DNA of 64,000 nt from NCBI GenBank assembly GCA_902728285.1, contig CACVBU010001140.1:40713-104712 (forward strand), given 5' to 3'. A program made the translations under genes and the position numbers. Source of the stretch: Clytia hemisphaerica. Lineage: Eukaryota; Cnidaria; Hydrozoa; Leptothecata; Clytiidae. The notes beneath the pieces were generated by a model. That model ran no database searches and was not told the origin of the DNA. It saw only the letters and a program-made list of their open reading frames with translations. The first letter of the stretch is position 1, and every line of letters starts with the position of its first letter. Of this stretch, positions 7,621 through 54,915 are shown piece by piece.

Positions 7621-8030
7621 ATAAGCTCGTTAGCGTTGCCAGCAGTTATCCTAGGAGAAGGAAAATCTCTGATTTCAAAACCCGGGTAGGATGAGCTCGT
7701 TAGTGTTGCCAGCAGTTATCCTAGGAGAAGGAAAATCTCTGATTTCAAAACCTGGGTAGGATGAGCTCGTTAGTGTTGCCAGCAGTTATCCTAGGAGAAG
7801 GAAAATCTCTGATTTCAAAACCCGGGTAGGATGAGCTCGTTAGTGTTGCCAGCAGTTATCCTAGGAGAAGGAAAATCTCTGATTTCAAAACCCGGGTAGG
7901 ATGAGCTCGTTAGTGTTGCCAGCAGTTATCCTAGGAGAAGGAAAATCTCTGATTTCAAAACCCGGGTGGGATGAGCTCGTTAGTGTTGCCAGCAGTTATC
8001 CTAGGAGAAGGGAAATCTCTGATTTCAAAA
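7621..8030 (+). repeat. six 70-bp repeats in the LINE 5' region
   Basis: Units start at 7621, 7691, 7761, 7831, 7901 and 7971 and are nearly identical. Each unit except the first, which has ATA, opens with ATG. The ATG begins a 22-codon ORF closed by TAG one base before the next unit. In unit 5 the TAG is TGG, so its ORF runs on into the main ORF. Unit 6 is cut off at AAAACC. In other LINEs such 5' monomers act as promoter units; here that role is inference. Confidence 0.9.
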
Positions 8031-11000: not shown

Positions 11001-11164
11001 TTTGGCAGCCAACATTCTTAACAAAGAAGAGAGGTCGTCCACACAAGACACTACTCAAAGTCTTAGAACAAGACACTGGACTTGACAAAGGCGAGATGGT
11101 TCGTTTGGCGCACAACAGGGTCAGATGGAAAGACATGGTCATGTCATCACTTTCAAGTGGATGA
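7901..11164 (+). CDS. LINE polyprotein: AP-type endonuclease and reverse transcriptase
   Basis: The open frame is 1087 codons from 7901. The first ~40 codons are read from the 5' repeats, so the Met at 8207 (residue 103, giving 985 aa) is the more likely start. A basic linker follows. Endonuclease spans about residues 162-400: QLNCRTL, the acidic residue in QEHR, GDFNAH near 308, SDHRIV near 394. Reverse transcriptase spans about 590-870: GKAAGLDGLP, NGFRPSRST, FIDFKKAFDSV, GVLQGDPLAP, and the catalytic FADD at 842-845. The C-terminal part has the conserved LAGHVIR and KRGRPHKT segments. Such proteins nick target DNA and copy their own RNA at the nick. There is no internal stop, so the copy may be young and possibly active. 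It has no partner ORF1, as in RTE elements. Confidence 0.93.
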   Translation: MSSLVLPAVILGEGKSLISKPGWDELVSVASSYPRRREISDFKTKQLLSLGGSRSVKGRCQHIDSLALFTLQLFWCTALRQSTPRQRQIRPIIVASHRLQENMIMSQNSTRVEAPELSRSILMSDRVQRTRNEVDIQNPFGRVKTDFRKRKGLLKQTSYVFIGQLNCRTLNSLSAKKELSIMALNYNISICAVQEHRIMHSAGDPPICTNTIGPYTLFTASAWKSSVNATIGGVGILVKSSLLSLIQSIDKISDRIVSITFKGNPKTTIISCYSPHSGHSDLEVEQFFEPLTNHLISIPRHSFVSVCGDFNAHLKGAFSYHSENNRNGSYLQDFMNECNLLASNTCFQKRKTSLWTWKSPSNQLSQIDYILCRKRWRNSIHDCQAHSSSDPVGSDHRIVVSKCKLSLRSTKKKPLNRLNWNILENPTIATAVKNEIQTKWTECTTKDYKHFSEIGMAACMNHLPVKKKTKDSEPISITNARRQVLHSKVTDLQRNQTNLKNVYVREEERRITHILNQANKSESTDGLRNAWKLVKELSGKKKAASVSIKSDDPKKSWKDHFETLLNNIPENVNGETNEIDPVFQLNEEINIDDFTLEEVNKALKQMKNGKAAGLDGLPLEFWKLDSLSTVLLHFCNATLNGERPDEWGLSCIVPVPKKGDLTKVDNYRGISLTQVAAKLYNRLILNRIRPEIDQKLRFNQNGFRPSRSTSSQVLALRRLVEEVNNHKVEAVLTFIDFKKAFDSVNRESMFKILLAYGIPDKLVNAIQIMYTNNRANVMTSEGETEFFDVVTGVLQGDPLAPYLFIIVLDYALRTAITSEDGFTIEKRRSRRHHTEKLADLDFADDISLLNETVVEAENLLHKLEISTQSIGLFLNAKKTKYMHINPTTSDGIQSVNGIALEKVDDFKYLGAYTNSNHDIEIRLAQAWSALNSLEKIWKSEASLSIKVQLFKSTVESILLYSCESWSLTSTLTKKLDGAYTRMLRKVKNIQSNVHITNKVLYGKLHRLSSLIQKRRLQLAGHVIRGNEPASKLLLWQPTFLTKKRGRPHKTLLKVLEQDTGLDKGEMVRLAHNRVRWKDMVMSSLSSG

Positions 11165-14196: not shown

Positions 14197-14201
14197 AACA
14201 C
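12044..14201 (-). pseudogene. Penelope-like reverse transcriptase/GIY-YIG, frameshifted
   Basis: The reverse transcriptase part reads 14201 to 12750 and the endonuclease part 12682 to 12044. Compared with the intact right copy, this copy has one extra A in the run at 12754-12756 (an extra T on the coding strand). That shifts the frame and gives a stop three codons later, separating the two enzyme domains. RT motifs are intact: SFDVVSLFTNVP, GVSMGSSMGP and the catalytic YVDD. There is no ATG at the 5' end; the frame runs open to the junction with the right copy, so the N-terminus is missing. The downstream part keeps the GIY-YIG-type TCPGCSADYIGKTDR segment. Confidence 0.9.
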
Positions 14202-18240: not shown

Positions 18241-18700
18241 TGTTCGATTTACAATTCGAGAAGTTTGAAATCTTTTATAAGGATCTAACTTTAACAACCG
18301 TGAAGCTTGAATTAAAGAAAAATTTGAATGCTAGTTGAAATAAACGTACTCTTTCTTATTTCCCGGTCTTTCTTTTAAAGAATAGGTTCGCATCCTTGTT
18401 TGACGATGAGAATCACCTTATTGGGGTTCACTTTTAGAAAGATTCCAAAGTCGTTTGCAACAAAGATTATGGCTCGCCGAATTACTTTTTATTACCAACT
18501 TTTTTTTTCGACACCAACTTTTGTTTTTTGACATCAATTTTTTTTTCTGAAACCAACTTTTCGTTTTTTGCGACAAACCGAGTGTAGCACGGATTTTGCA
18601 CAATTCGTCTGAGATGATCTGAGGTTCGTCTCAATAATAGATTGTTTATGCATTTGTTATACCTTTATACTGATGTATTTTCTGGTCTTTCTGTCCTTGA

Positions 18701-19690
18701 AATGTGCATCTGAGACGTCTCAGGGCCCCTCAGACTTTTCGAGATTATCTAAGGTTCCTCTCAATTTTAAAGTCTTTCTGTCCTTAAAATGTGCATCTGA
18801 GACGTCTCAGGGCCCTCAGACTTTTCGAGATTATCTGAGGTTCGTCTCAATTTTAAAGTCTTTCTGTTCTTATAAATGTGCATCTGAGACGTCTCAGGGC
18901 CCTCAGACTTTTCGAGATTATCTGAGGTTCGTCTCAATTTTAAAGTCTTTCTGTCCTTAAAAATGTGCATCTGAGACGTCTCAGGGCCCTCAGACTTTTC
19001 GAGATTATCTGAGGTTCGTCTCAATTTTAAAGTCTTTCTGTCCTTAAAATGTGCATCTGAGACGTCTCAGGGCCCTCAGACTTTTCGAGATTATCTGAGG
19101 TTGGTTTCAATTTTAAAGTCTTTCTGTCCTTAAAATGTGCATCTGAGACGTCTCAGGGCCCTTTAACTTTTCGAGATTATCTGATGTTCGTCTCAATTTT
19201 ATTGTCCTCCTTTCCTTAAAATGTGCATCTGAGACGTCTCAGGGCCCTCAGACTTTTCGAGATTATCTGAGGTTGGTTTCAATTTTTAAAGTCTTTCTGT
19301 CCTTAAAATGTGCATCTGAGACGTCTCAGGGCCCTTTGACTTTTCGAGATTATCTGATGTTCGTCTCAATTTTATTGTCCTCCTTTCCTTAAAATGTGCA
19401 TCTGAGACGTCTCAGGGCCCTCAGACTTTTCGAGATTATCTGAGGTTGGTTTCAATTTTAAAGTCTTTCTGTCCTTAAAATGTGCATCTGAGACGTCTCA
19501 GGGCCCTTTGACTTTTCGAGATTATCTGATGTTCGTCTCAATTTTATTGTCCTCCTTTCCTTAAAATGTGCATCTGAGACGTCTCAGGGCCCTCAGACTT
19601 TTCGAGATTATCTGAGGTTCGTCTCAATTTTATTGTCTTACGAGATTATCTGATGTACGTCTCAGTCTTATGGTCATTTCTTTCTTTTAA
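18701..19690 (+). repeat. 86-87-bp satellite, about 11 units, dimeric higher order
   Basis: Units start near 18701, 18788, 18875, 18962, 19048, 19134, 19220, 19307, 19393, 19479 and 19565. Each contains the perfect palindrome TGAGACGTCTCA followed by GGGCCC and CTTTTCGAGATTATCTGA. From 19048 on, two variants alternate: A with TTGGTTTCAA and AAAGTCTTTCTGTCC, B with TTCGTCTCAA and TTGTCCTCCTTTCC. This gives a dimer of about 173 bp. ORFs on both strands here are repeat artefacts. Confidence 0.92.
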
Positions 19691-39283: not shown

Positions 39284-40262
39284 ATGGCTTGTTTCACGAG
39301 GTAAATATATGCGTAAATTTTAAACAATATCTTATGAGAAAAATGCTTTTAGTTACTTGCTTAGATCGGTTAGCTTCAGTCTTTTACAAAGTCTGCATCA
39401 ACTGCTTTTTCATTGCATTAGGGCATTAGGATTATTTTCCTAACTGTACTACAACTTATAGGTCCACACATTTCAATATGCATGCAATAAACTCTCTCAA
39501 CTTGAACCTCTATAATAACCAAAGTATTGCTCCTCTGAGCTTGAAAGTAGATCGAAATGCTCTCAATAACTCGAATTTTGTTCCTTGAAGATCGAATTAG
39601 AGAGGCAACAGTACTCTAAGAATTTCCTATATAATACTCTTTTGAAAAATAATATAAAAGAAAAGGTTAGTCTGCTTATTACTAAATAGGACATAATGGG
39701 GTAATAGGGTCTGTTAATCAAACGTCCAGTTTTAGAGTAGACGTGTGTTTAAAGCTTTGTAAAAAAAGCTGTATAACAAAAAGTGATGGGAACCTAGTTT
39801 TGTCTGGCACAACTTGTAAACATTTCTCGTATATTTCCTTTTATAGATTCTGCAAGTTTATGTTGTTGATGGCAATCGCCGGATCTTTCGTTTCTGCTTT
39901 CCCATCCAGCGGGCATCATTACGAGAAACCGGTCATCGATCGGACCTTTCCGTGCTTCAAAGAATGCGGAACATATTACGAACAATGCGTTAAAATATCG
40001 CGCTGCTTTCAATCCCGTATATCGAGCTAAGAAGCTGGACGAATGCGTCCAGAAAAGGACTTTCTGTGAAGCTTTAAAATGTAAAGACTACCTGTGCTGT
40101 ATGCGAAAGTGTGAAATAGCCGATAATCAATGTATGGAGACTTCGCACAAGAGTAACCAGCAAATGATTTTATGTATGCAACAAAATTCGCTGTGTCAGC
40201 ATAGTTGTACTGCACGAGAAATGGACCGTGAAAATGACCCACATCAGGTTTATCAAACGTAA
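39284..40262 (+). pseudogene. secreted two-module six-cysteine protein, frameshifted
   Basis: Exon 1 is 17 coding nt (39284-39300) ending AG|GTAAAT. The intron is 39301-39846, acceptor TTTTATAG|A, and exon 2 begins inside a signal peptide (MLLMAIAGSFVSA). The frame then gives the first half of a module, C-x3-C-x6-C, and stops at 40028-40030 (66 codons). The +1 frame, open from just after 39992, continues with C-x6-C-x3-C and a complete second module, C-x3-C-x6-C-x13-C-x6-C-x3-C, to a stop at 40260-40262. One extra base between about 39992 and 40026 explains this; the T run 40007-40009 is a candidate. It could be a real lesion or an assembly error. The same 17-nt exon occurs in the genes at 44.5, 47.8 and 52.9 kb. 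Confidence 0.78.
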
Positions 40263-40385
40263 TATTACAATGACCATGGATCCTCAGTGGTGGTACAAAT
40301 ACGAAGAGAAAATGACCCACATCAGGTTTATCAAACGTAACATTACAATGACCATGGATCCTCACTAGTGGTACAATACGAAGAG
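40230..40385 (+). repeat. 78-bp tandem duplication at the gene's 3' end
   Basis: 40230-40307 and 40308-40385 are nearly identical (GAAAATGACCCACATCAGGT...). The first copy contains the last codons and the stop of the frameshifted gene, so the duplication lies across its coding end. Confidence 0.88.
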
Positions 40386-40940
40386 ATCTAAAAGCCCTTG
40401 ATTGATCTCGTCTTTTGCATGATTTTGAATTATAATTCAAACATAAGACATGATCGAAATGGAAATAGTGACTAATATGACCAATATCTATTCCTTGGCT
40501 AAGGTGTTGGATACTTCTATTGGAGTCATGATATGGACCAGTTTTCGAGAAGAAGAAAGTTTGAATTTTGACAAAGGCGTCACTGGCAAAATGACCAGGC
40601 AAATGTCATTTTCAAGAGTTATGAACTCTTTGAAAAACGTCGAAAAAAAGTTTTCCAGGTGTTTTTGCAGCAAAGACGTTTGCAATCTATTAAAGATATA
40701 CATTGACGTTTTATATACGCAATATTGAACTATATTTGAAACATTTGACCTAAAAGATGCTCCAAATAGCTTTGAAAACAGGATAAGACACTGTGTTATA
40801 AGAAACATTATGTTTTTGAAGATAAATTGACGATAACAAGCAAGATATTTTCAAATTTTTAAGTTGTTTTGATTTGTCACTCCCATAACATCATTTGTTT
40901 TCTTTTTCAACATTATTGAATCTGTCTTGACCAATAAAAC

Positions 40941-41048
40941 ATCCAGAGCTATGCACTTTCACAAACGTTGCTTCAACGTTCTTCTAACGTTATATGGACG
41001 TTGTGAACATTAGATAAACGTTGAAACAACGTTATGTGCCAGCTGGGT
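40941..41048. mobile_element. palindromic AACGTT MITE, copy 4
   Basis: The left end is degraded (ATCCAGAGCTATGCAC). The core ACAAACGTTGCTTCAACG and the right end CGTTATGTGCCAGCTGGGT are recognisable. Confidence 0.72.
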
Positions 41049-41381
41049 TTTCACAAACGTTGAGAGAAGAATAGGTTTAGCCATTCGGAAATAAATTTTG
41101 TACCTTGTACTCTAATAATCAATTACTCGAATTCTAATGCTATTCTGGAGTCTAATTCCCAAAGCCACTTGCAACACTTTTTGTGAATTTACTGATATAT
41201 GGACGTGATACAATCTATTCGCGCGCGCTCTCAGAAATTATTTTTTGACGTGGCATGCTCCGAAAAATTCAACTGCTTTTAGACAACTGAGGAATTGTTT
41301 CCACAAAGGGCCACAAACAAAACAGAATGGTAACTTAACAAAATTCGAAACGAGAATGAAAAACAGAAAGATAATATTTAA

Positions 41382-41645
41382 TTATTGAAAGAAATGACAT
41401 TTAGCTTTAGACTTGAAAATAACGATAGATTGGGATTGACGGAGATCGTTGGGTAGATTATTCCAGACTTCAGTACCATTATGAAGAAACGTTTTAGAGT
41501 CATATTTGTTTCTTGTTTTTCGAACACGTAACTTGTTTTCCCTGGCAGCTCTGGTGTTCACACCTACTAGCTCCCCTTTTTCATTCCTGTTACCACAGAG
41601 AAAGAATCGTTTTGTGAGATAGAGGAGAAATTTTATTTCCTGCAC
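41382..41645 (-). pseudogene. LINE reverse transcriptase C-terminal fragment
   Basis: About 87 codons including NTRAARENKLRVRKTRNKYD, then a block with F, NGTEVWNNLPNDLR and FKSKAK near the stop. This R...F...G..WN.LP...R....FK order is the usual C-terminal tail after the reverse transcriptase in jockey/CR1-like LINEs. No catalytic motifs are present, so it is a 5'-truncated remnant. Confidence 0.7.
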
Positions 41646-41831
41646 TGTTCAATGTATGCTCTTTGCTGCTGAAGACAATACAAAATATCATTCGACCAAT
41701 TTCTTCTCAAGCACTTATCTGTTCTTTGGCTGCAGCCTTTTTGACTTTCATCACTCGTATTATCCCTCAACTGCTTTTGTAATGTTTACATTTTTTGTGT
41801 GAAACAGGGGTGTTAGAAAATTTATTTTTAG

Positions 41832-42200
41832 GAGCTCCCGGGGGGGGGGGTACTAGGGTTGGCGAATAATGAGGGGTATGTGCGGACGGAACCTCCGAAA
41901 ACCGACCCTTAGAGAGACTGATTTTTGCTGAAAAGGTGACCCTTAGAGAGACTTTTTGAAATGTTTTTTTCGATTTTTGAAAAAAGTCATACCCTTAGAG
42001 AGACTTTATTACAATTTTTTCTCTGGAAATCAAAACATTTCCTAAAAATCCTGAATTTTCCGACCCTTAGAGAGACTAATTTAAAACTTTCTGATTTTTC
42101 CGACCCTTAGAGAGACTTTGAAAGTTGAAAAACCGACCCTTACCGTCCGCACATACCCATCATCCATTTTTGCCTAAGTACCCCCCCCCCCCCGGGCTGT
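41832..42200. mobile_element. MITE with G/C-run ends and internal 16-bp repeats
   Basis: Inverted ends of about 60 bp: CCCGGGGG...TACTAGG and GGGGTATGTGCGGACGG on the left, CCGTCCGCACATACCCAT and TACCCC...CCCGGG on the right. Inside, GACCCTTAGAGAGACT occurs five times with spacers of differing length. A diverged copy is at 57202-57491. Non-coding. Confidence 0.85.
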
Positions 42201-42260
42201 AACTTTTTATCTAAAAAAAGATACGAAAAATCTGAACACATATTTGAAATCAGCAAGGTA

Positions 42261-42370
42261 GGTTTAAATATGTAAAAAAATTCATGTCATGATTTTTTAA
42301 AAAATAAAATCTTCATTTTGTTTATCTTCTTCTTCATTTTTCAATTTTTAAAAAATCTTTTATCTTTTAG

Positions 42371-42372
<2 letters not shown>
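42261..42372 (-). repeat. SINE tail segment, duplicate of 43690-43811
   Basis: About 112 bp from AGGTTTAAATATG to CTTTTAGATTA match 43690-43811 nearly base for base. Together with 43505-43690 it forms a SINE copy split by the LINE-ORF1 insertion. Confidence 0.82.
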
Positions 42373-42402
<30 letters not shown>

Positions 42403-42410
42403 TTAAAGGA
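42369..42410 (+). repeat. (TTTA)n tail
   Basis: About nine copies of TTTA. Read on the minus strand it is a (TAAA)n tail right after the short 3' untranslated part of the LINE ORF1 element, as expected for LINE-type retrotransposition. Confidence 0.85.
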
Positions 42411-43503
42411 TTGAGGTTCAAGGCGCGCCGTGGGCCTCTAAGAACCTATCTTTTTACAAACGCTTGTTGTTACAGTTTTCTTTAAGTATAATTTTGTTCT
42501 GGGGCTTCCCCTGACTTTAAATTGAATAGTTTTGTCTTTCATTTGAGCATTAAGCTCGCGTGCTCTCTTGCTAAATTCTTTGATTGTCAATCGTTCAATA
42601 ATTGTAAGGTCTTCTGTTGCTCGATAGGATGAAGGAGGGCCTTTTTATGTCGTGATGGTTCTCAAGACTTTGTTCTTGTCTTCTTCATTTTCGAAAACTA
42701 CCTTGATTGGTCGATACCTCCCTTCCTCCTCTCTCTCTTCCGTGAATACTCCAATCCTCTGTGTGTTTACAATTTTTATGTCCTTGATACCCAGTTGTAA
42801 TCCAAGGATTCTGTACTTTATGAATTTCTCGTCGTAGATTTTCGTTGTATTTTCGGGATCCTCCAAATTTTCTTTGATTCCATGGAGAATTAGATTGCAT
42901 GCTGTGGATCGTTGTTTGCCGACTGTTTCACTTCGAGCCATTTTCTCCACCTTATTTGATTGTTGATTCATCTGTTTGGATACAGCTTCAGCATAACTAA
43001 CCTCTTTCAGCTCTTGCTTCTTTTCGATTATGATGTTCTCGATCTTTGTTTCTATCTTCTTCTCGAGTATGCTCATCTTTGTTCCCAGGTTTTTTTTGAT
43101 TTCTTTTGTAATAACGTTGAGGTCATTTGATTTCAGTTGGGAGATTTCTTCATTTTGAGCTTTCATGATGTTTTCACATGCTTTAATTTCCGTTTGAAGT
43201 CCTTCGATTTTGGTGTTTCTGCATGTTTCAACTCGTTCCATCAGCTCTGGTGAGATCTTAACGCAACTTTGACATTGGAAACTTCTAGATTTAAACGTTA
43301 AGCAAATCTGTATTTGGTAGATTGGTAGCTGGGAACAGTTATAATGAACATCTCTATGGCACTTCCTGCAGGTCAGAGTGTCTTTTGGTGTTGTTTCTCC
43401 TCTAATAATGCATTTTGTTGGGGTGCAAACCTCATTTTCAAGCGGCAATTCTTGGTCATTTTCATCGATTTTTTCCTCCATTTTCCTTGCGAGATTCGCC
43501 ATT
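42373..43503 (-). mobile_element. ORF1-only LINE derivative
   Basis: On the minus strand the insert starts at the ATG of ORF1 (43502), contains ORF1 and about 30 nt of 3' sequence, and ends in (TAAA)n. No ORF2 is present. It interrupts one of two tandem SINE copies: the uninterrupted sister (43805-43825) reads AGATTAGTCTACTTGC across the insertion site. So this is a non-autonomous, half-LINE type copy. Confidence 0.72.
42438..43502 (-). pseudogene. LINE ORF1 protein: PHD finger, coiled coil, RRM-like domain
   Basis: Opens at 43502 and reads 285 codons to a TAA at 42645-42647. The same frame continues 68 more codons to a TAG at 42438-42440, so the TAA is probably a nonsense mutation. Residues 26-80 give a PHD-type zinc finger (Cys 26, 31, 45, 48, His 53, Cys 56, 77, 80). 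Residues ~85-175 are a charged coiled coil. About 195-285 form an RRM-like domain (NLILHGIKE, RPIKVVFENEEDKNKVL). Beyond the TAA come KEFSKRARELN and KVRGSPRTKLYLKK, the usual end of such proteins. ORF1 proteins bind the element RNA. Not a host gene. Confidence 0.82.
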
Positions 43504-43504
43504 A

Positions 43505-43690
43505 TTCTACTTGCATATATCTTTCCAACGGTGTTTAATTATCTAACAAAGCCTGGATGGGTGCTGAGAAAATGTCAAAAACTATTAAGCGTCCACATAC
43601 TTTTGAGAAAGACTTTAAGTAAGAAATTTTTGGTTTTGATCGGCTTGGGAATTGAACACACGAGCTCGTGCACCGTAGCTGGATGCTCTA
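43505..43690 (-). repeat. truncated SINE head/body, first tandem copy
   Basis: It shares TCTACTTGCATATATCTTTC, GGATGGGTGCTGAGAAAA and the B-box region (GGAATTGAACACACGAGCTC) with 43812-44020. It ends at GGATGCTCT and then joins the tail of the next copy. Its own tail is 42261-42372, on the other side of the ORF1 insert. Confidence 0.75.
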
Positions 43691-44025
43691 GGTTTAAATA
43701 TGTAAAAAAATTCATGTCATGATTTAAAAAAAAATAGGAAAAATCTTCATTTTGTTTATCTTCTTCTTCTTCATTTTTCAATTTTTAAAAAATCTTTTAT
43801 CTTTTAGATTAGTCTACTTGCATATATCTTTCCAACGGTGTTTAACTATCTAACATAGCATGGATGGGTGCTGAGAAAAGCTCAAAAACTATTAAGTGTC
43901 CACATACTTTTGAGACATACTTTAAGTACGAAGTTTTTGGTTTTGATCGGCTTGGGAATTGAACACACGAGCTCGTCCACCGTAGCTGGATGCTCTACCT
44001 TCATGCTATGCCAGCACCTCGAATA
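43690..44025 (-). repeat. tRNA-derived SINE, second tandem copy
   Basis: On the minus strand the head at about 44020 has an A-box-like ATAGCATGAAGGTAGAGCAT and a B-box-like GTGTTCAATTCCCAA, then a body and the TTTAGATT...CATGAATTTTTT tail. It differs from the SINE at 30044, so at least two tRNA-derived families are present. Confidence 0.72.
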
Positions 44026-44276
44026 AATGTCTCCCAACCATTCCTTAAACTAACTGGGTGTAAAATGACTGACAGTAAACATTGTTTCCATTTCGGGAAA
44101 GAAATTCAAGCCAATGGAACCTAATAGCTACCTTTGCCTGGAAGTGAGATAGCTTTGTCTTAGACATTACCTTCCAATATTATATGAATTATTTTCTCCT
44201 TTTTCCCGGACACACTGAATCTGGCCTGTTGGCAAACAATTGCCAGAACTAAAAATTACTGTCTCGTTTTATTTCA

Positions 44277-44527
44277 GTTTCCGTGTATATTTTGTCTCTT
44301 ACGCATTTCCTTTGATCGACATCCATCGAGTCCAAATAAAATAGGAAAGAGCTTTTGTTTGGTCTTGTTTGTTGAGAAAATAAGAAAGTTTATTAATATA
44401 AATTGGCTTGATTATCATCTTGTAACACTAGCGAAGGTAGCGTAATGATTTGATGAAAAATAAATTTTTGATTTGAATATTTATAAAGCACGCGTGGTAA
44501 TAAGGTTAAAATGATGCTGAAAAGCGG
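44277..44527 (+). promoter_or_regulatory. conserved upstream region of the 44.5-kb gene
   Basis: About 250 bp up to the first splice donor are homologous to 47619-47862 upstream of the paralogue: TTACGCATTTCCTTTG, CATCGAGTCCAAATAAA, TTTGTTTGGTCTTG, AAAGCACGCGTG and AAGGTTAAAATGAT. Conservation outside the coding exon marks the duplicated promoter and 5' UTR. TTATAAAG lies only about 30 bp before the ATG and may not be the TATA box. Confidence 0.6.
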
Positions 44528-45419
44528 GTAAAAATAATTTTTTTCATTTTACATCTAGAGTTTTTTTGCGAGATTTTAGTAGTAGGTATTATAATCATAG
44601 AGGTCGTATAATTAAGGATGTAATAGCCATGACATTCTTTTAATTTGATTAAGGTATCATCTTTGCAAAGGGAATAGGGACATTTTTAGCAAAAACATCG
44701 ATTTTTGAAGGTTAAAATGTTCTTAAGATGTTCTTATTTTCACTGCTTTGTGAGTATTTTTCTTAGAGTCCGTAGGTACTTGGGCAAAAAGGGGCACAGG
44801 GGTGTGATCCCGTCAGTCGGCAAGGGTAGTACCCCGGAACGTGTACCTACTACAAAGTTTGAAATAGAAATAAGAAATTTTCTTTATTGTTTTATATAGT
44901 GCATTTTTACTGGTATTCTTCGTTCTGCTGACTCAGCACATTACGTCATCAGCCAACATCAACAAATGTATAAAAAGGTGCAATGACGCTCAAGTAAAAT
45001 GTACCACTGGTCTCTTTGAAGATGAAAATGAGAGAAATTCGAAATGTTGGAATGCTTTCTGTAAATGTAAAGACGAATGTCCTAAAGTGTTTGATCAAAT
45101 TCCGACACCGACGCCGACGCCGTCAACGACACTAAGAAGACTCCCGCCTATGTTCAAATGGTACGATATTAGAAACAGTAGTCCGTTCAGTTTTTGGGGT
45201 AAATCATTGAAACGAAACAATCCTTGTCGAAAGAAATGTAGCGCAAATCAAGATCAATGTCTAGCCTTCTCACAATCATTCGGTGATCGCATGTCTTGTT
45301 TTCGAAGGAGAAGATTTTGTTTCAGAAAATGTAAAATCCCAAATTATATCAAAAGTTGTGATATCATAAATCTCATAACAGGTCGCCCATTTTGCAAGTA
45401 TCCCGGCTCTAGGGGCTAA
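44511..45419 (+). CDS. secreted protein with two six-cysteine modules
   Basis: Exon 1 is the 17 nt ATGATGCTGAAAAGCGG (44511-44527), donor GG|GTAAAA. The intron is 44528-44899 (372 bp), acceptor TATATAG|T. Exon 2 is 44900-45419. Joined they give 178 codons plus stop, in frame. A signal peptide runs to about residue 27 (hydrophobic AFLLVFFVLL, then THIxSSA type end). Module 1 is C-x3-C-x6-C-x14-C-x6-C-x3-C. A TPTPTPTP linker follows, then a basic stretch, then module 2, C-x3-C-x6-C-x12-C-x6-C-x3-C, and two more Cys near the end. It is presumably extracellular. Function unknown. It is paralogous to the gene at 47.8 kb in promoter, exon 1, intron and module 1. Confidence 0.85.
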
Positions 45420-45597
45420 TGGGATGCAGAGAATGACGAATTGAAAAGTTGAAAAGGTACAATTTTGAAAACATTGAATATTTTTATTAAGCTTTTGAAT
45501 GAGGCGCTGGCTGGGATTGACTAAAAATAATGAATCTTGAAAGAAAATACGATATTCAAAACATCGGAGTCCAGTTTTTTTTCAAATAGTCTTGTTA

Positions 45598-45730
45598 CAG
45601 TGGAGTCTCTTTAAATCGAACCTCGATAATTCGAATGTCTCCTTAATTCGAACAAGATTTCTGGGCTGGAAGTTTGAAATGCCGTATAAACCATACTCCT
45701 ATCAATGTTCGAGTTATGGAGACTCCACTA
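45598..45730. mobile_element. pogo/Tigger-type MITE (133 bp)
   Basis: Left CAGTGGAGTCTCTTTAAATC and right GTTATGGAGACTCCAC are inverted, and TA lies on both sides. TCGAAC/GTTCGA motifs are internal. Class from general knowledge of such ends; not verified. Confidence 0.72.
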
Positions 45731-45768
45731 ATATTTTTGTTAATAAATTTGACAGACATGGAAACCAA

Positions 45769-45927
45769 TACACCTTTTCGACCGTAGCCACCAATTGCCA
45801 CGCGGGCATTTTTTTGTCCACTTTATCCCACTAAAACCGTCCCAGTCCTTTTTCCCCACCTATAGACAATAGAAAAATGTGTCAAAAAAAATTAAATAAT
45901 TAAGTAGACTACGGTCGAAAAAGAGTA
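45769..45927. mobile_element. MITE with ACACCTTTTCGACC ends, copy 2
   Basis: Left TACACCTTTTCGACCGTAG and right CTACGGTCGAAAAAGAGTA are inverted. The interior CCACTAAAACCGTCCCAGTC matches the reverse complement of the copy at 37473-37675. Confidence 0.78.
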
Positions 45928-46621
45928 TGAAAAAACTGTTTAACTTAATATAATTTTTGTAGATGCTTTTCTGCTCTGCTTGATTGATTGTAATTGTTTA
46001 TACAGTCTGTCCCGTAAAAAGCGGACAAATTTTTATATAAAGTAAAATCCTTATAATTTATGCCAAATTTTATGACTTGTATACTTAATATTTTTATCTC
46101 AAAAACCTACTCAATAATCTTGGGAATTGAATATCTATTGACAATACAAAGAAATTGTAATCCGCCCAGTTTAGGTGTATTCTATACCCAGTCTAGGTGT
46201 CATAGGTTGAGTTTGACGCGAAGTGAGATGGTTTCGAAGAGCTTTGCATTGTAGGTCAATAGGTCTTTTTCCTACTATACCATTTACCCTCGAAAAGGGT
46301 TCATTTTGACGCCTCTGTCTCACAGCCCCGCTAAGAGGGGCTTTTTCTCACAGTTGGGATGAAAATTTCTTTCGAAATCTCAATGGCGATTGTTTTAAAA
46401 TGCAATTCTTTTCCTTGAGTTTTGAAGTTAGTTTCTCACCGGGGACTAAGTTTTGGCAAAAATTTTTCATTTTAGGTGGGGGTGGGGGTCCCACTTGTTG
46501 TGTGATACGGGTTGTATTATGTCTAATGAAGTTAACCAATGGTCAATCTTGTCTAATTCAAGAAAATGCTAACACCTGTTCTTCTTTCTTCTGAAAATCT
46601 TTACCTTTTTTTACTCAAATA

Positions 46622-46800
46622 GAATATGCTATAGTCTAAGACAAATCACCATCTAAGAAATAAGCCCAAAGCCAAAGAAATTTCGCAAACGGGCTTTTTG
46701 CCGAAAAGAGTTTACAGTCGGTAGAGTTTGCCAGTCGAAACTCTCCCCCGTTTTTTTTCCGTATACCGCCATAACACCACCCCGCCATATTTTCCCACCT
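46622..46800 (+). repeat. dispersed repeat, partner of 32775-32960
   Basis: The blocks TATAGTCTAAGACAAATCAC, GAGTTTACAGTCGGTAGAGT and TTTGCCAGTCG match the minus strand of 32775-32960. Confidence 0.65.
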
Positions 46801-46804
46801 TTAC

Positions 46805-46972
46805 ACTCATTGTAGGACTTTTATTATATTCGAATCTTTCTATAATTCGAACTTATTCCCAGTCCTCGTAAAGGAGAAACTTTTATAATGTACATTCCAT
46901 AACTCGGTTCTCTCTGAGATTCGAACAAACAATTTCCCGTTTGAGTTTGGATTAGCGAGAATCAACTGTATA
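46805..46972. mobile_element. degenerate pogo/Tigger-type MITE
   Basis: It has TTCGAATCTTTCTATAATTC and TTCGAAC on the left, and CATAACTCGGTTCTCTC, GATTCGAAC and GAGAATCAACTGTA on the right. Ends are imperfectly inverted. Similar to 45598-45730 and 33231-33785. Confidence 0.5.
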
Positions 46973-47253
46973 TTTTCTCTTTTTGGAGAGGAGAGGTTTA
47001 AGATGATTGTCCTCCCCCGACGAGAACACTACTATACTGTGCCACATTTTATCGTATCTTTGTTGTAATTTTTGAAAATTAAAAAGCTTGTAAATTAAAT
47101 ATGATATCACTTTTATCTAAAAACAAATTCTTTAACCCTTTTCCAGACAAATTTGAGTTTATATACCGGAGGATATCAAAGGCAACGATAGGAGAATTCG
47201 ACGCAAAGCAAAGTCGATACTTGATGTATGACTCGCCTTTGCTCACCTACACA

Positions 47254-47439
47254 GACGACGGTATTAGCGAGGTTAAGCAAGTGTTTATCTAGACCGTTCA
47301 ATGCGATATCGTTGGCCTGTACATAAGATTTCACTTGCATGGTTTGCTTTGTCAAGTTATGTACAGGCCTACGATATCACATTGAACGGTTAAATAAACA
47401 CTTGCTTAACCTCGCTATTTTGATGTTTTTGCCGTCGTC
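47254..47439. repeat. foldback hairpin between the two paralogues
   Basis: Arms 47254-47326 and 47357-47439 pair: GACGACGG, TAGCGAGGTTAAGCAAGTGT, ACCGTTCAATG, GATATCGT and GGCCTGTACATAA against their complements. The loop is about 30 bp. A small insertion lies in the right arm. It may be a foldback element or an inverted duplication. Confidence 0.85.
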
Positions 47440-47687
47440 AAGTAAAGTGGACGGTGATTTGGACGGCATGTCAACTTTGCTCTACACCGTCTCCTTCGAT
47501 TTATTTCGAATACATGCTCGCTTGTATGAGAAAGGATCATGTGGTGTAATCTAGGTCTTTCGGCACTGTTGGCAAAAGACTTTCAAGCCTACATGATATA
47601 ATGTCTCATAATGTTTCATTTTCCGTGTGTATTTTGTCTGTTACGCATTTCCTTTGGTCGACATCTCCATCGAGTCCAAATAAATAG

Positions 47688-47694
47688 TATAAAG
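47688..47694 (+). promoter_or_regulatory. candidate TATA box (TATAAAG)
   Basis: TATAAAG about 158 bp before the ATG at 47846, inside the region conserved with the 44.5-kb paralogue. The paralogue has a diverged AATAGGAAAG here. Weak evidence for the core promoter. Confidence 0.35.
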
Positions 47695-47845
47695 CCTTTG
47701 TTTGGTCTTGGTTGTTGTGATAATAAGAAAGTTTACGAATATACGAATTGACTTGATTATCGACATGTTAAACTAGTGAAGGTATGAGATGTAGTGGTTG
47801 ATTTATATGATTTTTATATAAAGCACGCGTGTTGATAAGGTTAAA

Positions 47846-49983
47846 ATGATCTCGAAAAGCAGGTAAGAATACTTATTTCAATCAGGGATATGTAATAGCG
47901 AAGCTGGATGAAGGACGAGAATTCCTTAGCGGATTGCTTCTTTGTCTTTTCTATTGTAAACTGTTCATAATAGAAATCCATCTCTGTCCCCTTGAGTGTT
48001 TATAAGAAAATTTTATAAGAAAAATGAAGCAGACAAAGTATTCATGCAGTACGTCTGTACATATTTTGCTATGATGTTCCCACTTTTCATCAAAATAATA
48101 TTTGCAGAAGATACCCCAAAAGCTTCTTTGTAAATGACATCTAATTTTATCAGTGTGTGTTATAAATTTGAGAAGCTTTCATGATTCCTCTTTAAAATTT
48201 TGGATGTAAATATTTTTACAAATATTGTTTCAATTGACTTTTTTCCATAATCAGACATACCGACTCGCTATCTGAAAATATCAGCTAGAAAGTGATGCAC
48301 CCCGCGGTGTAGCGCGGTATTTCAAATGAAAAAGTGATATTTATAATCTTACAGAAGAAATTTCTTATAACTTTACTAATGAAAACAATGTTTTTCTTTT
48401 TTTTTTTAATTGTCATTCGCCAATGTTTTACAGACCCTCTTAATAATCAAAAGTTTTTAATCGTGAAGGATAAATACAGAAGCAAAAAAATCCAAATTTC
48501 ACGAGTTTGTCATTAAAAAAGTTAATTTTCATTTCAAATTTTAATGTCAGGGTACAGAGACAGAACAAGGCTTTTTCAAAAGTGCGTTATCCAGCTCCGC
48601 TATTACATATCCCTGTTTCAATTAACGTGAAGTTTTTTGACTTGGGAACTTACCTTGTCTGTACACAAACCCGATATCTACGGCTAATTTCAAAATTCAT
48701 TGCCGTAGAGGGTCTGTTGTCATTGTCATTGTCGTACATTGTACTACGCTACGATAATCGTGAGATACACTCTGGTACAGAGTAGAACTTACCCAGACTC
48801 AAAATTTCAGAAAAAAACTCTTACCTCAACATACAAAGTTTATTCTAAAATTTTAGAGTCTGGTGCAACTAAAAAAGTCTGATACAATTTTGAATGACAC
48901 AGTCTGTGAGTGAACCCTTGTTGACAGAATCTCAAAACTTTGGAAACCCAGGCAGACACACATAATAACTTACCATAAAACCTTTTACAAACTCAATAAA
49001 CTTTCAAAACTACTTAAACTATATCCAAACGTCAGCCACAATCATAAAGGCTCATTCCATCAGCCATTTTGTTTAGAAATAAACCTGTGTTTTCAATTTC
49101 ATTTGTTTATCTTTTTTTTTGTCAGCTTTTTCCATAAATTATGCGCGCGCATCGAGAAATATCGAAAACCCTGCAAAAATTCCGCTCAGTGACTGGGCGC
49201 GTACTGACCAATTAGATACACTCGCATATGCAGGGACAAATATCCCTGCAGAGGAGTTGGTTGGACCAGACCGTAAACCAGAGACAAGATTATAAAAAAA
49301 CTAGATGATGAAATAGTTTACGGTCTGGGTATCCAGGCTAGAACTTACCGTAAGTCACTGCTTTCACATTGAAAATTTGCTGTATTTGTGGACAATGGGT
49401 CATTGCCGGTTGCCCATATGATAGCCATTGGAATGACAGTCTTTTAATTTTACATGCTTAAACGGCAGTCATCTTGGCAAAGGGAGGAGGGGAATGCTCT
49501 CATTTAGCTTAAGTTCTAATGATTGTCATCTTTTTGTGTTATAGTGCCTTATTACTGGTATTCTTCATACTGCTGACTCAGCACATTGTATCATCAGCAA
49601 ACATCAACAAATGTATAAAAAAGTGCAACGACGCTCAAGTGAAATGTACTACTGGTCCCTTTCAAGATGAAAGTGAGAGAAATTCGAAATGTTGGAATGC
49701 TTTCGGTAAATGTAAAGATGAATGCCCTAAAGTGTTTGATCAAATTCTGACACCGACGCCGACGCCGACACCGTCATCTAAAAGACGCGCGATCTTGATG
49801 AAAAAAGGGTCAAATATCAGAAAAAATTCGATCCGTTGGAATGTTGGTAAAAAGCACTTGAAGGGGAAGGAGTTAGGGAACAATTCTGGTCGAGGAGTTG
49901 TTACTTGCTTCGTTGGAGTTGGGAAGTGGCAAGTAGCTTTAGTTGAGATATTGAAAAAATTACTGGCAACCGAAAAAGAATAA
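47846..49983 (+). CDS. secreted protein with one six-cysteine module
   Basis: Exon 1 is the 17 nt ATGATCTCGAAAAGCAG (47846-47862), donor AG|GTAAGA. The intron is 47863-49544 (1682 bp), acceptor GTTATAG|T. Exon 2 is 49545-49983. Joined length is 151 codons plus stop, in frame. An ATG at 49519 is in frame with exon 2 but lies in the acceptor tract, so I prefer the spliced start. The signal peptide and module 1 (C-x3-C-x6-C-x14-C-x6-C-x3-C) nearly match the 44.5-kb paralogue. After the TPTPTPTP linker the two diverge: here a basic, Gly/Lys-rich tail with one Cys replaces module 2. The intron is longer than in the paralogue because it holds a MITE (48794-49340). AATAAA overlaps the stop (49979-49984) and recurs at 50175. 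Confidence 0.83.
48794..49340. mobile_element. MITE copy 2, inside an intron
   Basis: Diverged copy of 303-829 in the same orientation. The direct 9-mer GAACTTACC flanks it (48785-48793 and 49341-49349). The right end GGTATCCAGGCTA is intact. The left end lacks the first ~13 bp seen in copy 1 and starts at CAGACTCAAAATTTCAG. It lies within the intron of the 47.8-kb gene. Confidence 0.75.
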
Positions 49984-50430
49984 ACATACATCAAAAGTAC
50001 GATTTTGAAAGTAAATGTAATATGAGAGTAATGTATAACACATATAACACATATAATACATATAACACCTTATTTCCCTTAAACACGTGCGCTGAGAGCA
50101 TGAAAAGCCATTTCCACCGTCAATTCATATCCATTTAGATTTCCTGCATCACATTGAGTATAAATATAATTCTTAATAAAATGACCTGAGAACCATTATA
50201 TTTTACAATGCCATCAACATTTTTAAAAAAAGTGTCAATTCCAATATTGGAATATTCTTGTTTTCAAAACAGAAGTTTATGTTTCCGAATAGTCCAGGGA
50301 GAGTGTGCTAAAAATGAATACAATTGTGCATTTTTGACTAGAAAGCATGAAATTTGGTACAGTGGTACCTTAGGGGGTAAGAAATATTTTAAGCCTCTGA
50401 CCCACTTCGGGAACACCTGTTTGTGTATTT

Positions 50431-50930
50431 TACAGACCAGAATGCCTCCCAGGGAAGAAAAAAAATTTTTATCTTCAAAGCATGTCATATGATATATCGT
50501 TGGAAAGGTTTTCTCACACTGATTCTAAAAAACAAATGGACTGGGTCCGAGTTATGGGCTACTGAAGTAATTTACAGACCAGTCTGCATGCCCGAAAAAA
50601 TTTTTTATTTTTGTTCCAAAACATTTCATATCATATACCGTTGGAAAGGTTTTTTCACACTGATTATAAAAATCATCATGATATGTATCTCAAAATGGAC
50701 TGGGTCCGTGAAATAAGCCATAGGAGTAATTTACAGACCAGAACGGCTCCCGCGCATACAAAAAAATATTTTTATCTCCAAACCATGGCATACCATATAC
50801 CATTGGAAAGGTATTTTTACACTGATTCCAAAAAACATCACAACACGCATCTCAAAATGGACTGGGTTCGAGTTATAAGCCATGGGAGTATTTTACAGAC
50901 CAGAATGGCTCATGGTCCATAACTCGGACC
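50431..50930 (+). repeat. ~160-bp tandem repeat, three units and a partial
   Basis: Units begin at TACAGACCAG near 50431, 50573, 50732 and 50894 (142, 159, 162 bp). Each has a form of CATATACC(A/G)TTGGAAAGGT, CACTGATT and ATGGACTGGGTCCGAG. Short ORFs in all units reflect the repeat. A related CATTGGAAAGATAAT motif occurs at 55103-55415. Confidence 0.85.
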
Positions 50931-50989
50931 TAGTCCATAATTTCGAAAAAAAATATCACTCCAAAACAAAGAAATGGTTAGATTCAATC

Positions 50990-52900
50990 CGTTGTCAAAG
51001 ATACGATTCATATTTTAAGGCTTCACTTTTTCTTACTTGAGAAAGGTTAGAGATTCGCTTCTAGCCCTTTGGGCTTATCTTCATTGCGTGATACCGTACT
51101 TTTGATAAGCGTTATCAAAATCATAAAACAGCGAAGTAAAACGACTGGGTTTAAGTCTGGGTTAAAATCACTGACCATTAAAAACACCGGACCTCAGATA
51201 TCATACCCTTTTACACACTAGAAATGACTACACTACTTACAGATTTCTCGTGGAAGTGTGTCCAGTTTTGAAGTCGACTAGTTCAACATGTTGTTTTCAA
51301 ATTTATCTTGGATTTTCGAACGTAAGAATTTCAAAACATTTGAATTGTGCTGTTGACGACCAAAATTGAAAACATAATGGCAGACTAGTTAGCTCTAAAT
51401 TCGGGCAAGCTTCCTATATACGGGTAGCCCAATCCAATCAAGTAGTTAGATCAGTGCCCTTCAGTGCCCCTGACCAAGCTATATCCGCCATCTTTGGAAT
51501 TTTTTAAGTCATACCCGTAAAGCCATTGTAATGTTGAAACTTTGCCCGTTGACAAACGGGGCTAAATCAGTAGTCTGCAAGAGCAAAGTAGATCTAGCGC
51601 TCTCGATGCGGGTACCACTTTCAAAAAGACTCAATGCAAAATTTCTTTTGATAATTCTGCTTTTTCAGCATGAAAAAGAATATCTTTAACAGTTTAACTT
51701 TTGTAATTTTTCTATAGAAGTTTTTTGTTCTGCTTAATTTTTATGGTTTTTACTTATAGTAAAAATGTTAAATGTATGTATTAAGAATTTTGAAATATAT
51801 TGAACTATATCGAAAAATTGCAACAAAAAAATGAAAAATCCACTGTTAGAGAGTGACGACTTGAGGCTTTTTTGAATCTTTAAGATAACATTTTTCTATT
51901 TTGCAGAAGCAAAGTTTTCGAATTTCAAGAATGGAATCTATTCACTGAGATTAATTCGCTCCTAATTCTGGTATTTGCGTTCTGTTTCTTTCCTTTACAA
52001 GTTTCCTCACATTGATTTGTTGAGTACCGCCCCAACCCCTCCCCCCCCCCCCGGTGGAGAAGGTAAAATTGTGATCAGCAATGCACGAAAATACACATCA
52101 ATAAGAACCACCTTCTTGTTGCTGAGATGGAATCATGTTTAGAAAGGACGCGCTCGGTGTCAATCCCAATGTAAGACGAAGTTTTAACCTAAGATTTCGA
52201 CACAATTAAAGAATTTCAGCAAAAAGTGGAGGAAACTTTCAACACAGAAGTGTAAAAATTACAAAAACTTTTAGCCATGAATCATAATAAATGCTTCACT
52301 TCATCTTTCGGTGTAAACTTTGTTGGATATAATTTTCTTAAAATTTCATTTTTGGAAAAGATTGACCTTTTATTTTTTGTTCCCTAGATTTTTCTATATT
52401 TATATTATCATACACGCCTTTTTTATAAGAACCAGTAAATTTTGGTTGAGGCCGAGCTGGTTTAATTTTTTGAAAATTTTCAGACTTCTTACAATGTTCT
52501 TAATTTCTTTATTTAAAAACTTAACATGGGTTTAAATTCTGTTGAATTAAAATCGGTACTCCCTTAGTAATTTCTGAAATCTGGGGCTCAAGATTGTTCT
52601 TAATTTGTTCATAGGTTTTGGTCAATTTTCAGGCTTTTGTTCTTATAAAATTGTTCGTATAAAAAAGCGCATACGCGGAAATTTTTTCGTTTTCTTGCAA
52701 ATTTTTGACTCTGTTGGAAAACTTGGAATGTTGTTAGTTCACAGTCCGTGACGCATTTCATGATTTTTTTAAGGCTCTTTATAAACAAGAAAAATAACAT
52801 TATTCTCCACACTTTCGTTTACCGTGTAAACAGGTCTTTAGGATATAAATTTCTATGATTTTACACCCTATTTTACAAAAAGTACTACTGTTGCTGGGAC
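50990..52900. other. no gene recognised; partial SINE-like tail at 51018-51085
   Basis: 51018-51085 matches the tail of the repeat at 18055-18240 (GCTTCACTTTTTCTTACTTG, CTAGCCCTTTGGGCTT). The remainder, up to the next gene, is AT-rich with a C run at 52036-52052 and unsupported ORFs. Confidence 0.5.
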
Positions 52901-52916
52901 CAAGGAGAAGAAAAAA

Positions 52917-54915
52917 ATGGCACTCAAGCTAAGGTAATGAGTCTACTATATTTCAGTCTTAGAAAAATTTTCAAAACTTCGACCTACCTTCGACTTAGAG
53001 CCTTTTATCTATTTTATACGGTATAAATTCTGTATTGAAGAACTCGTTGAAGAAGGGAAACACCCCTGTCTCAGTGAAGGAAAATAAAAGAATTTCATCG
53101 GGTACTTACTTTTAATGACGTGAAAAAACTCAATAGGATGGTAAAATGTTTACCGCCAGACATCTTGATTAGGGAAAGGTTCTATTCTTCTTTAAGGGCG
53201 AGAGTATTGAGTTTTTGCTCTCCCAGCTGGCACACAACGTTTTTTCGACGTTCATCTAACGTTCACAACGTCCATATAACGTTAGATTAACGTTGAAACA
53301 ACGTTGTGTGCCAACTGGGCTCTTAAAGAAACCTGCAAATAAAACTCCATGTTCTTAATGTACTATTCAAACGTTTAGTATTTTAGCATCGTTACTGGTG
53401 GCATATTTGCTGATTCAGCATATATCATGCAGACTCGTTCCAGCCCCCTCATCTTCGACTTCGACACTTCCATCCAAGTCAGAGTATGTACCTGACCCAA
53501 TGGCGTCGAGAATCATGCCAACCCCAACACAATCACAAATTGTCCCTATACCTTACTCAACACGAGTTATGACAACTGAATTCGAAATTGATGATGGCAA
53601 AAGAACCGAAACTACATCCAGTGAAGCAAGCCCTGCTCGAAAAGCATCTACTGAAACAACAACAACTGAAGTCACAACCAGTGAAATGATGTCTACCGAA
53701 AATGTATCCACTGGAACGATATCACCACCCTTATCAGTGATTACCACTGAAATAAATACATATACTGAAATAACATCAACTGAAGTCACATCCAATGAGA
53801 CGACAACCGAAAATATAATCGCTGGGATGGTTCCCAGGGACGAGCTTGAATGTGTCGCATTTTGTCTTATTCTTCGAAAAACATCAAACCGAAAGACTGC
53901 TCAAGCATGTAAATACGAATGTTCACATAGATTCGTTCCCAGTCCCAAACCAACAGATTTTGACAAGTGTGAATCAGAATGTAAGGTAGAAAGAAAAAGG
54001 TGTGAAAACCCTGGCCCAGAAACTGAATTATTGGTCGATTGTGAAGAGGAAGATAGATTATGTAAAAGAACTTGTTTGGTACATTTCAAAGGAGATGGCT
54101 TTGAGAACAAATTCACCACGAATAATCCGTTGACCACAGATGAACACGAAAGTACAACTCCAGGAGATGAGTATGTGCAAACAACTGACGAATTATGTTT
54201 TACCGGATGTAAAGTCAAACAACGTATTTGCTTCACAATCAAAACTGAAGATTTCCAAGAAACTCTCCTGTGTATGCAAGCTTGTTCAGACACTTGCTTG
54301 CATCATTGTAAAGCGAAAAAAATTCCAGCCGTGAAGCCGACTACAAAAAGAATCCTTAGTACGTGTTTGACAGAGTGTAAAAAGGAGCAGGTTTCTTGTC
54401 TAGAAGTTGAATATCGCGACCCCATTATTTGTGTAAGAGCTTCAAATCTCTGCAAAGAAAAATGTAACCGAGCGACTACCATGTTGAAACGAACTAGTTC
54501 CGTAGTCAGGGGACTCGCGTTACAATCTTCCGGCAAGCTTCCACGATTAAAAATCTCTACCTCCGTATCTGACACCCGACAAGAGAAGCTAGGATCACTG
54601 CGATCGCTCAACCTTGTTGAATGGTTAACAAAAAGAAAAGGGCGGTCCTCGAAATCACCAATAAGTACAGCTACCTCAGAAAATGAAGAAAGATCATCCA
54701 CAGCAACACCACGCCTTTCAACGCCCTCATTCCACCAAAGTGTAGATTCAAACCCACTAGAAGAACAGTGCCTCGAACAATGCAGAAGAGAAAAGAGAAT
54801 TTGTTGGGTAGATTGGGAAGATTCTACCCTTTGTTTCCAACTCTTCAACTTGTGCAATGGGGATTGTAACTTTTTGTGTTGGCGGGGGGTAGAATTTAAG
54901 AATGAGGGGTACTAG
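52917..54915 (+). CDS. large secreted multi-module six-cysteine protein with mucin-like region
   Basis: Exon 1 is the 17 nt ATGGCACTCAAGCTAAG (52917-52933), donor AG|GTAATG. The intron is 52934-53378 (445 bp), acceptor GTTTAG|T. Exon 2 is 53379-54915. Joined length is 517 codons plus stop, in frame. The signal peptide is ILASLLVAYLLIQHISC-like, as in the paralogues. A Pro/Ser region and a long Thr/Ser/Glu-rich stretch (about 53580-53825) follow, probably O-glycosylated. Then come five cysteine modules: a reduced four-Cys one near 53850 (C-x3-C-x14-C-x3-C), then near 53968, 54196, 54363 and 54769, each C-x3-C-x6-C-x(9-13)-C-x6/7-C-x3-C. A Ser/Arg-rich spacer separates the last two. No transmembrane segment is evident. 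Likely an extracellular or mucus-associated protein; function unknown. Confidence 0.87.
53222..53320. mobile_element. palindromic AACGTT MITE, copy 5, inside an intron
   Basis: CCCAGCTGGCACACAACG on the left pairs with CGTTGTGTGCCAACTGGG on the right. It lies 58 bp before the exon 2 acceptor of the 52.9-kb gene. Confidence 0.85.

Follow-up and report, generated by a model that had tools for sequence, protein, structure and literature searches.

Introduction

Hairpin Loop Peptides are secreted and carry six cysteines in mirror symmetry; models show them as a pair of helices closed by three nested disulfides, and they have been reported from fungi, from aphids and from four cnidarian species, among others (Zhu et al. 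2026, PMC13357843). They are described as single-module peptides of about 85 amino acids including the signal peptide, nearly uncharged and hydrophobic (grand average of hydropathy, GRAVY, of 0.965 in A. niger), the mature fungal chains beginning with Gly-Pro (PMC13357843). The aphid peptide BCR3 (bacteriocyte-specific cysteine-rich peptide 3), listed with a signal peptide, 86 amino acids and six cysteines, has the pattern CX3CX6CX21-25CX6CX3C, its disulfide pairing being given as unknown, and the synthetic peptide was antimicrobial and permeabilised E. coli (PMC9604261, PMC6594739, PMC3574423). Here we report a cluster of four genes from the hydrozoan Clytia hemisphaerica whose products carry modules with this mirrored cysteine arrangement, found in a 64,000-nucleotide stretch of a 417-Mb assembly (G000:C786:40713-104712, hereafter the window). 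The four cnidarian species with Hairpin Loop Peptides are all, we assume, anthozoans, and an arrangement of fungal, aphid and some anthozoan peptides is now found in a hydrozoan, with another surface chemistry and in serial copies.

We conclude that the gene family is real, lineage-restricted and secreted, that it is built on a six-cysteine mirror-symmetric module, and that it bears signs of constraint. Its novelty is that of a hydrophilic, serially repeated variant, the cysteine arrangement itself being already known. Beyond the two possible earlier accounts discussed below, our searches of open-licence papers brought up no report on these genes among the papers listed.

The gene cluster and its modules

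The four genes lie on the plus strand at positions 39284-54915 of the window, and each encodes a hydrophobic N-terminus followed by modules (signal peptides and cleavage points were assigned by eye), as the initial annotation had proposed; public proteins match three of them (P0004 for gene 1, P0006 for gene 2 and P0001 for gene 4). A six-frame scan for the strict pattern C-x3-C-x6-C...C-x6-C-x3-C, permitting a loop of 5-25 residues, yielded six matches in the window, all on the plus strand and all inside the four genes, with loops of 9-14 residues, while 200 first-order Markov simulations of the window yielded none. All four genes share one design, namely a 17-nucleotide coding exon with a GT donor, a phase-2 intron within the signal peptide, and one large exon; the joined models of genes 2, 3 and 4 encode 178, 151 and 517 amino acids, respectively. 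The features of the cluster are as follows.

39284..39300, plus strand: gene 1 exon 1, 17 coding nucleotides, signal-peptide start with phase-2 donor; P0004 starts with the same residues
39847..40262, plus strand: gene 1 exon 2, remainder of the signal peptide and two modules; frame shifted in the window copy, open on contig C628
39953..40082, plus strand: gene 1 module 1, six cysteines, final spacing x4; contains the frame shift
40098..40208, plus strand: gene 1 module 2, strict
44511..44527, plus strand: gene 2 exon 1, 17 coding nucleotides, same as in P0006
44900..45419, plus strand: gene 2 exon 2, 178-amino-acid protein with a TP-rich linker and two modules
44967..45080, plus strand: gene 2 module 1, in register at all six cysteines, with a seventh that the ENA relative P0007 also has
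45225..45332, plus strand: gene 2 module 2, strict, net charge +8
47846..47862, plus strand: gene 3 exon 1, 17 coding nucleotides
49545..49983, plus strand: gene 3 exon 2, 151-amino-acid protein with one module
49612..49725, plus strand: gene 3 module, strict
52917..52933, plus strand: gene 4 exon 1, 17 coding nucleotides, same first residues as P0001
53379..54915, plus strand: gene 4 exon 2, five modules and linkers after a Ser/Thr-rich stretch
53851..53922, plus strand: gene 4 module 1, four cysteines, C3 and C4 jointly absent
53968..54075, plus strand: gene 4 module 2, strict
54196..54309, plus strand: gene 4 module 3, seven cysteines, C4-x7-C5, then x3
54364..54465, plus strand: gene 4 module 4, strict
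54769..54867, plus strand: gene 4 module 5, strict in the open frame

Modules in one, two or five copies, all with the strict spacing, had been expected from the first inspection of these letters. The copy numbers stand, with ten modules in the window (two each in genes 1 and 2, one in gene 3 and five in gene 4), but only six are strict, with loops of 9-14 residues where 9-17 had been read, and one more is in register with an extra cysteine. Nor does the C-x6-C-x3-C half keep a constant spacing, as had also been thought, since gene 1 module 1 reads x6/x4, gene 4 module 1 is without C3 and C4, and gene 4 module 3 reads x7/x3.

The joined gene 2 model is identical to P0006 (178 amino acids), and gene 1, when read from C628, equals P0004 (144 amino acids), for which UniProt gives the name 'Cnidarian restricted protein'. 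Gene 3 has no counterpart among the nine public proteins returned by our protein searches, which depended on shared 5-residue words. P0001, an uncharacterized Clytia hemisphaerica protein of NCBI with 502 amino acids, has the same start as gene 4 (517 amino acids) and a different C-terminus. It ends in NGDY, just before the final cysteine of module 5, while the genomic frame (54769-54915) reads through that cysteine; the ending of P0001 is possibly a matter of splice-model choice.

Contig C628 carries a near-identical region in reverse, its two longest blocks being 99.7% and 99.6% identical to the window; we take it for one and the same locus assembled twice, for example as a haplotype that was not merged. 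The frame of gene 4 is shifted on C628 and open in the window, the converse of gene 1. Because the near-identical C628 copy of gene 1 has an open frame equal to P0004, the shift in the window may be an assembly error or a variant, and since each broken frame is open on the other contig, neither gene is shown to be dead. With a broken frame in a different gene on each, the two contigs look like a case of assembly redundancy combined with small indel errors. A relaxed version of the motif, run over 70 kb of C628 and over 30 kb adjoining the window on C786, turned up no additional cluster genes.

Two repeat features touch the cluster. A 78-bp tandem duplication is present at the 3' end of gene 1 (40230-40386), its first copy holding the final codons and the stop and its second lying just downstream. 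Short palindromic repeats rich in AACGTT at 40960-41045 and 53220-53320, alike and in opposite orientation, flank part of the cluster and resemble, by eye, miniature inverted-repeat transposable elements.

Members beyond the window and evolutionary constraint

Protein searches of the genome recovered four further genes on contigs C430 and C373, each with one strict module. The family accordingly comprises at least eight genes and at least 14 module copies in the Clytia genome, figures that are a lower bound.

C430:500588 (C430a): matches P0002; single strict module with basic sites on either side
C430:527777 (C430b): P0008 is part of this gene; single strict module
C373:1107506: matches P0005; single strict module
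C373:41094: no database protein among those returned; single strict module

A scan of both strands gave one six-cysteine match in each of these four loci, and the weak genome hits L007, L029, L031, L032, L033, L037, L038 and L044 were dropped for want of such a match on either strand. In P0002 the sequence RQRR precedes the module and RRKR follows it, and the same sites occur in its relative P0003 (78% identical); this flanking pair is found in none of seven other proteins scanned, and it suggests that the C430:500588 module may be excised by a furin-like convertase. The product of C373:41094 would have about 60 amino acids and a net charge of +16 if its assumed cleavage is right.

Across the 14 copies, ten are strict, with loops of 9-15 residues. 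Each module holds 5-18 charged residues, GRAVY ranges from -1.19 to +0.06 (mean -0.47), and net charge ranges from -5 to +8, four of the five gene 4 modules being neutral or acidic. With the near-copies in genes 2 and 3 set aside, paralogous modules are identical at no more than 6 of the 18 non-cysteine arm positions. Module 3 of gene 4 is identical at 6/18 arm positions to a C430 gene and at 5/18 to the adjoining module 4; growth of gene 4 in place by internal duplication gains no support from such arm identities, though with values as low as these it may still have taken place.

The nine public proteins returned are all Clytia or ENA entries. Each of the three Clytia-versus-ENA-relative pairs that we compared retains all six module cysteines, and between C430b and P0009 the module is identical at 36/38 positions, against 102/192 outside it. 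Genes 2 and 3 form a tandemly duplicated pair that evolves under constraint, with dN of 0.075 and dS of 0.261 (nonsynonymous and synonymous distances, NG86) over the first 73 codons and dN of 0.042 and dS of 0.238 in the mature part. The dN/dS of this pair is well under 1, a sign of purifying selection. The proposal of a lineage-specific family grown by tandem duplication is supported as to lineage, the public matches being confined to Clytia and ENA entries, and as to genes 2 and 3, but tandem duplication is only part of the story, because four more genes lie on C430 and C373.

Probable fold of the module

The cysteines of the two arms fall at relative positions 0, 4, 11 and 0, 7, 11, which corresponds to one helix face and its mirror image (step spacings 4,7 and 7,4). 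Among 12 in-register modules (10 from Clytia, 2 from ENA), proline is found at none of the 215 non-cysteine arm residues, against 4 of the 152 loop residues. In an ideal-helix model, antiparallel pairing of C1-C6, C2-C5 and C3-C4 gives a distance of 3.8 Å at all three pairs with a crossing angle of 13 degrees, a solution obtained at an axis distance of 7.5 Å, the smallest permitted. Module 1 of gene 4 is without both C3 and C4, and its cysteines are free of orphans only if these two pair with each other, which favours the antiparallel arrangement. These features together suggest that the module is probably a hairpin of two helices, its nested bonds being C1-C6, C2-C5 and C3-C4. Should this fold be true, we would be dealing either with a very old scaffold that has been reused many times or with a strong case of convergence.

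Comparison with described families

No Pfam model reached its cutoff for any member scanned, and no convincing match was found among PDB sequences, so that the initial annotation was right to see no named domain family here. The nearest approach in Pfam was RET_CRD (PF22540), present in P0003 only (19.6 bits against a cutoff of 26, E 0.0011) and absent from the 78% identical P0002; like the other matches below cutoff (Defensin_beta_2, D-Glu_cyclase, Cauli_AT, Tox-PAAR-like, PARM, REV and DUF2706), it concerns a single gene and was taken as chance. Against PDB sequences, the best match of a first module profile was a zinc finger (E 0.22), followed by five antifungal-protein chains (E 1.3-6.6), and a larger profile gave the zinc finger alone (E 0.12); we took all of these for chance, and neither profile returned an acrorhagin chain at E up to 10. 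Gene 4 gave eight weak chains, the best being SRB7/Med21 (E 0.061-0.084, residues 220-268), which the module profiles did not repeat and which we rejected as chance.

The six-cysteine spacing, on the other hand, is not undescribed as had been supposed, for BCR3 is listed with the same arms and Hairpin Loop Peptides have the same mirrored topology. At the level of pattern, the Clytia proteins share with BCR3 a signal peptide and the arms C-x3-C-x6-C...C-x6-C-x3-C, and differ in the loop, which is 21-25 residues in BCR3 and 9-15 in the ten strict Clytia copies. Hairpin Loop Peptides, compared here by the published description of their topology, have the mirror-symmetric six cysteines that 10/14 Clytia copies show strictly. 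The Clytia modules differ from them in being charged and hydrophilic, as the composition given above shows, and in occurring one, two or five per protein, and no Gly-Pro is present in the first ten mature residues of five Clytia members (cut by eye). Because Hairpin Loop Peptides are almost uncharged and hydrophobic, we do not file the Clytia modules under that name, but we hold the architecture to be probably of the same kind. The Hairpin Loop Peptides of the pea aphid (86 amino acids) and BCR3 (86 amino acids, mirror spacing) may themselves be the same or related peptides (PMC13357843, PMC3574423); the word 'bacteriocyte' does not occur in the main text of the 2026 paper (PMC13357843).

Plant alpha-hairpinins are described as sharing the helix-loop-helix arrangement and have four cysteines rather than the six of the strict Clytia modules (PMC11591084); four are found in only one of our 14 copies, gene 4 module 1, which reads CX3C-x14-CX3C. 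Within the cnidarians, acrorhagin I and the two sea-fan toxins U-GRTX-Esi20/21 are listed as disulfide-stabilised helical hairpins of venom (PMC11896702). From Clytia itself, the 'PF1' family has been described as Clytia-restricted, short secreted proteins with conserved cysteines, expressed in aboral neurosecretory cells of the planula, for which its authors proposed a role in larval adhesion or defence (Ramon-Mateu et al. 2025, PMC12225738). Hydra proteins were absent from those returned by our protein searches, no direct comparison with Hydra sequences having been made.

Function of the family

We consider it fairly probable that these genes encode a family of secreted recognition scaffolds built on a disulfide-laddered alpha-helical hairpin. 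In each module, two helices of some 12 residues would run antiparallel, with a variable loop between them and the nested bonds given above closing the structure; the cysteines would fix the scaffold, while the helix faces and the loop would be free to vary among paralogues. It is this combination of a fixed scaffold with freely varying surfaces that leads us to propose that the module acts as a stable extracellular recognition scaffold. Among the single-module genes, C430:500588, with convertase-like sites on both sides of its module, would release a free peptide, and serial modules, up to five in gene 4, would yield multivalent molecules. The target is more likely a specific partner, such as a receptor, a matrix component or a protein of prey or microbe, than membranes in general, a preference based on the wide span of module net charge. 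The six strict matches against none in the simulated windows, the single exon/intron design, the four genes elsewhere in the genome, the cysteines retained in all three pairs and the closely conserved C430b module speak for such a family, and the mirrored spacing, the proline-free arms, the helix geometry and the joint loss of C3 and C4 for the hairpin. As Clytia genes can be knocked down, its role is testable in the whole animal.

Several observations weigh against this interpretation. Four of the 14 module copies deviate from the strict pattern, and extra cysteines occur, the mature chains of genes 1 and 2 (cut by eye) having odd totals of 13 and 15, respectively, so that intermolecular bonds or an unpaired cysteine are possible. 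In the other two pairs compared, P0002-P0003 and gene 2 module 2-P0007, the module shows no clear advantage in conservation over the rest of the protein, with 29/37 identities against 80/102 outside for P0002-P0003 and 21/36 against 47/95 for gene 2 module 2-P0007. The fold itself is inferred from cysteine spacing, proline pattern and crude helix geometry, and a parallel pairing of C1-C4, C2-C5 and C3-C6 fits that geometry equally well on distance.

A possible alternative, which we nevertheless regard as unlikely, is that the genes encode lineage-restricted antimicrobial or microbiome-controlling peptides, the hairpin acting on bacteria as reported for aphid BCR3. The activity of synthetic BCR3, which has the same C3/C6...C6/C3 spacing, would be in keeping with such a role (PMC9604261, PMC6594739, PMC3574423), as would the Hydra antimicrobial families, which are genus-restricted paralogues, often clustered and with signal peptides, the periculins having a common exon structure (PMC10945409); those families, however, are reported to be without homologues in Clytia (PMC10945409). 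Gene 2 module 2 and the C373:41094 peptide are strongly cationic, but with a charge spread that reaches -5 and a gene 4 product made largely of neutral or acidic modules, a uniform cationic antimicrobial role is not preferred. The antifungal-protein chains among the weak PDB matches are not significant and disappear with the larger profile, and the strong conservation of the C430b module better suits a specific partner.

It is rather unlikely, in our estimation, that these genes are or belong with PF1. The two sets share the species, the taxonomic restriction, secretion, conserved cysteines and the existence of several homologous genes, but PF1 proteins, set beside the present genes by description, are short and largely planula-restricted (PMC12225738), whereas the gene 4 product is too long for that description. 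For a plain helical hairpin one would also expect, though this is an expectation only, some Foldseek match. If the identity did hold, that unexplained family would gain a structural reading and a genomic history.

A developmental signalling role, with gene 1 among the secreted 'cnidarian-restricted' transcripts changed by Wnt3 knockdown in Clytia gastrulae, appears quite unlikely. The UniProt name of gene 1 resembles the term used by Lapebie et al. 2014, who listed 37 cnidarian-restricted transcripts in their Wnt3-knockdown screen, 13 of them with signal peptides (77-526 amino acids) according to the results text, while the discussion instead says more than half (PMC4169000). In the same list, WegIE2 is a secreted protein given as Clytia-only, with endoderm defects on knockdown (Lapebie et al. 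2014, PMC4169000), and the convertase-like sites around the C430a module would suit a released ligand. The link to the screen, however, is through a database name and is a lead only, and the large sequence diversity among the paralogues fits signalling poorly. We judge improbable the more specific proposal of hydrozoan-specific released hairpin ligands, in which single-module hormones and multivalent strings would come from paralogous genes and at least one member would act downstream of Wnt3 in gastrulation.

Likewise improbable is a role in venom, the products being disulfide-stabilised helical-hairpin peptides of nematocysts or glands comparable to acrorhagin I and the two sea-fan toxins. 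Such hairpins are part of cnidarian venoms as listed (PMC11896702), and a constant cysteine scaffold with otherwise diverse residues would suit a venom, but no acrorhagin chain was among the PDB profile matches, a five-module chain with a long Ser/Thr-rich stretch is unlike small venom peptides, and selection on genes 2 and 3 is purifying, not diversifying. Finally, the idea that these are fortuitous open frames, or duplicates in decay that yield no protein, as the frame shifts in the window copy of gene 1 and the C628 copy of gene 4 could suggest, is hardly credible given the empty simulations, the low dN/dS of genes 2 and 3, the open counterpart of each broken frame and the database proteins that match three of the models.

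Repeats and retroelements elsewhere in the window

Upstream of the cluster, six 70-bp tandem copies (7612-8032) lead into the start of a 1087-amino-acid frame resembling that of a long interspersed nuclear element, with endonuclease and reverse transcriptase domains (7612-11164 in all). Two near-identical retroelement frames in opposite orientation occupy 12044-16196, one on the minus strand (12750-14201 with 12044-12682) and one on the plus strand (14382-16196); the latter, the only one of the two that was scanned, has a reverse transcriptase domain. The C-terminal part resembles a GIY-YIG endonuclease, as in Penelope-like elements. An 86-bp satellite of about 11 copies lies at 18685-19639.

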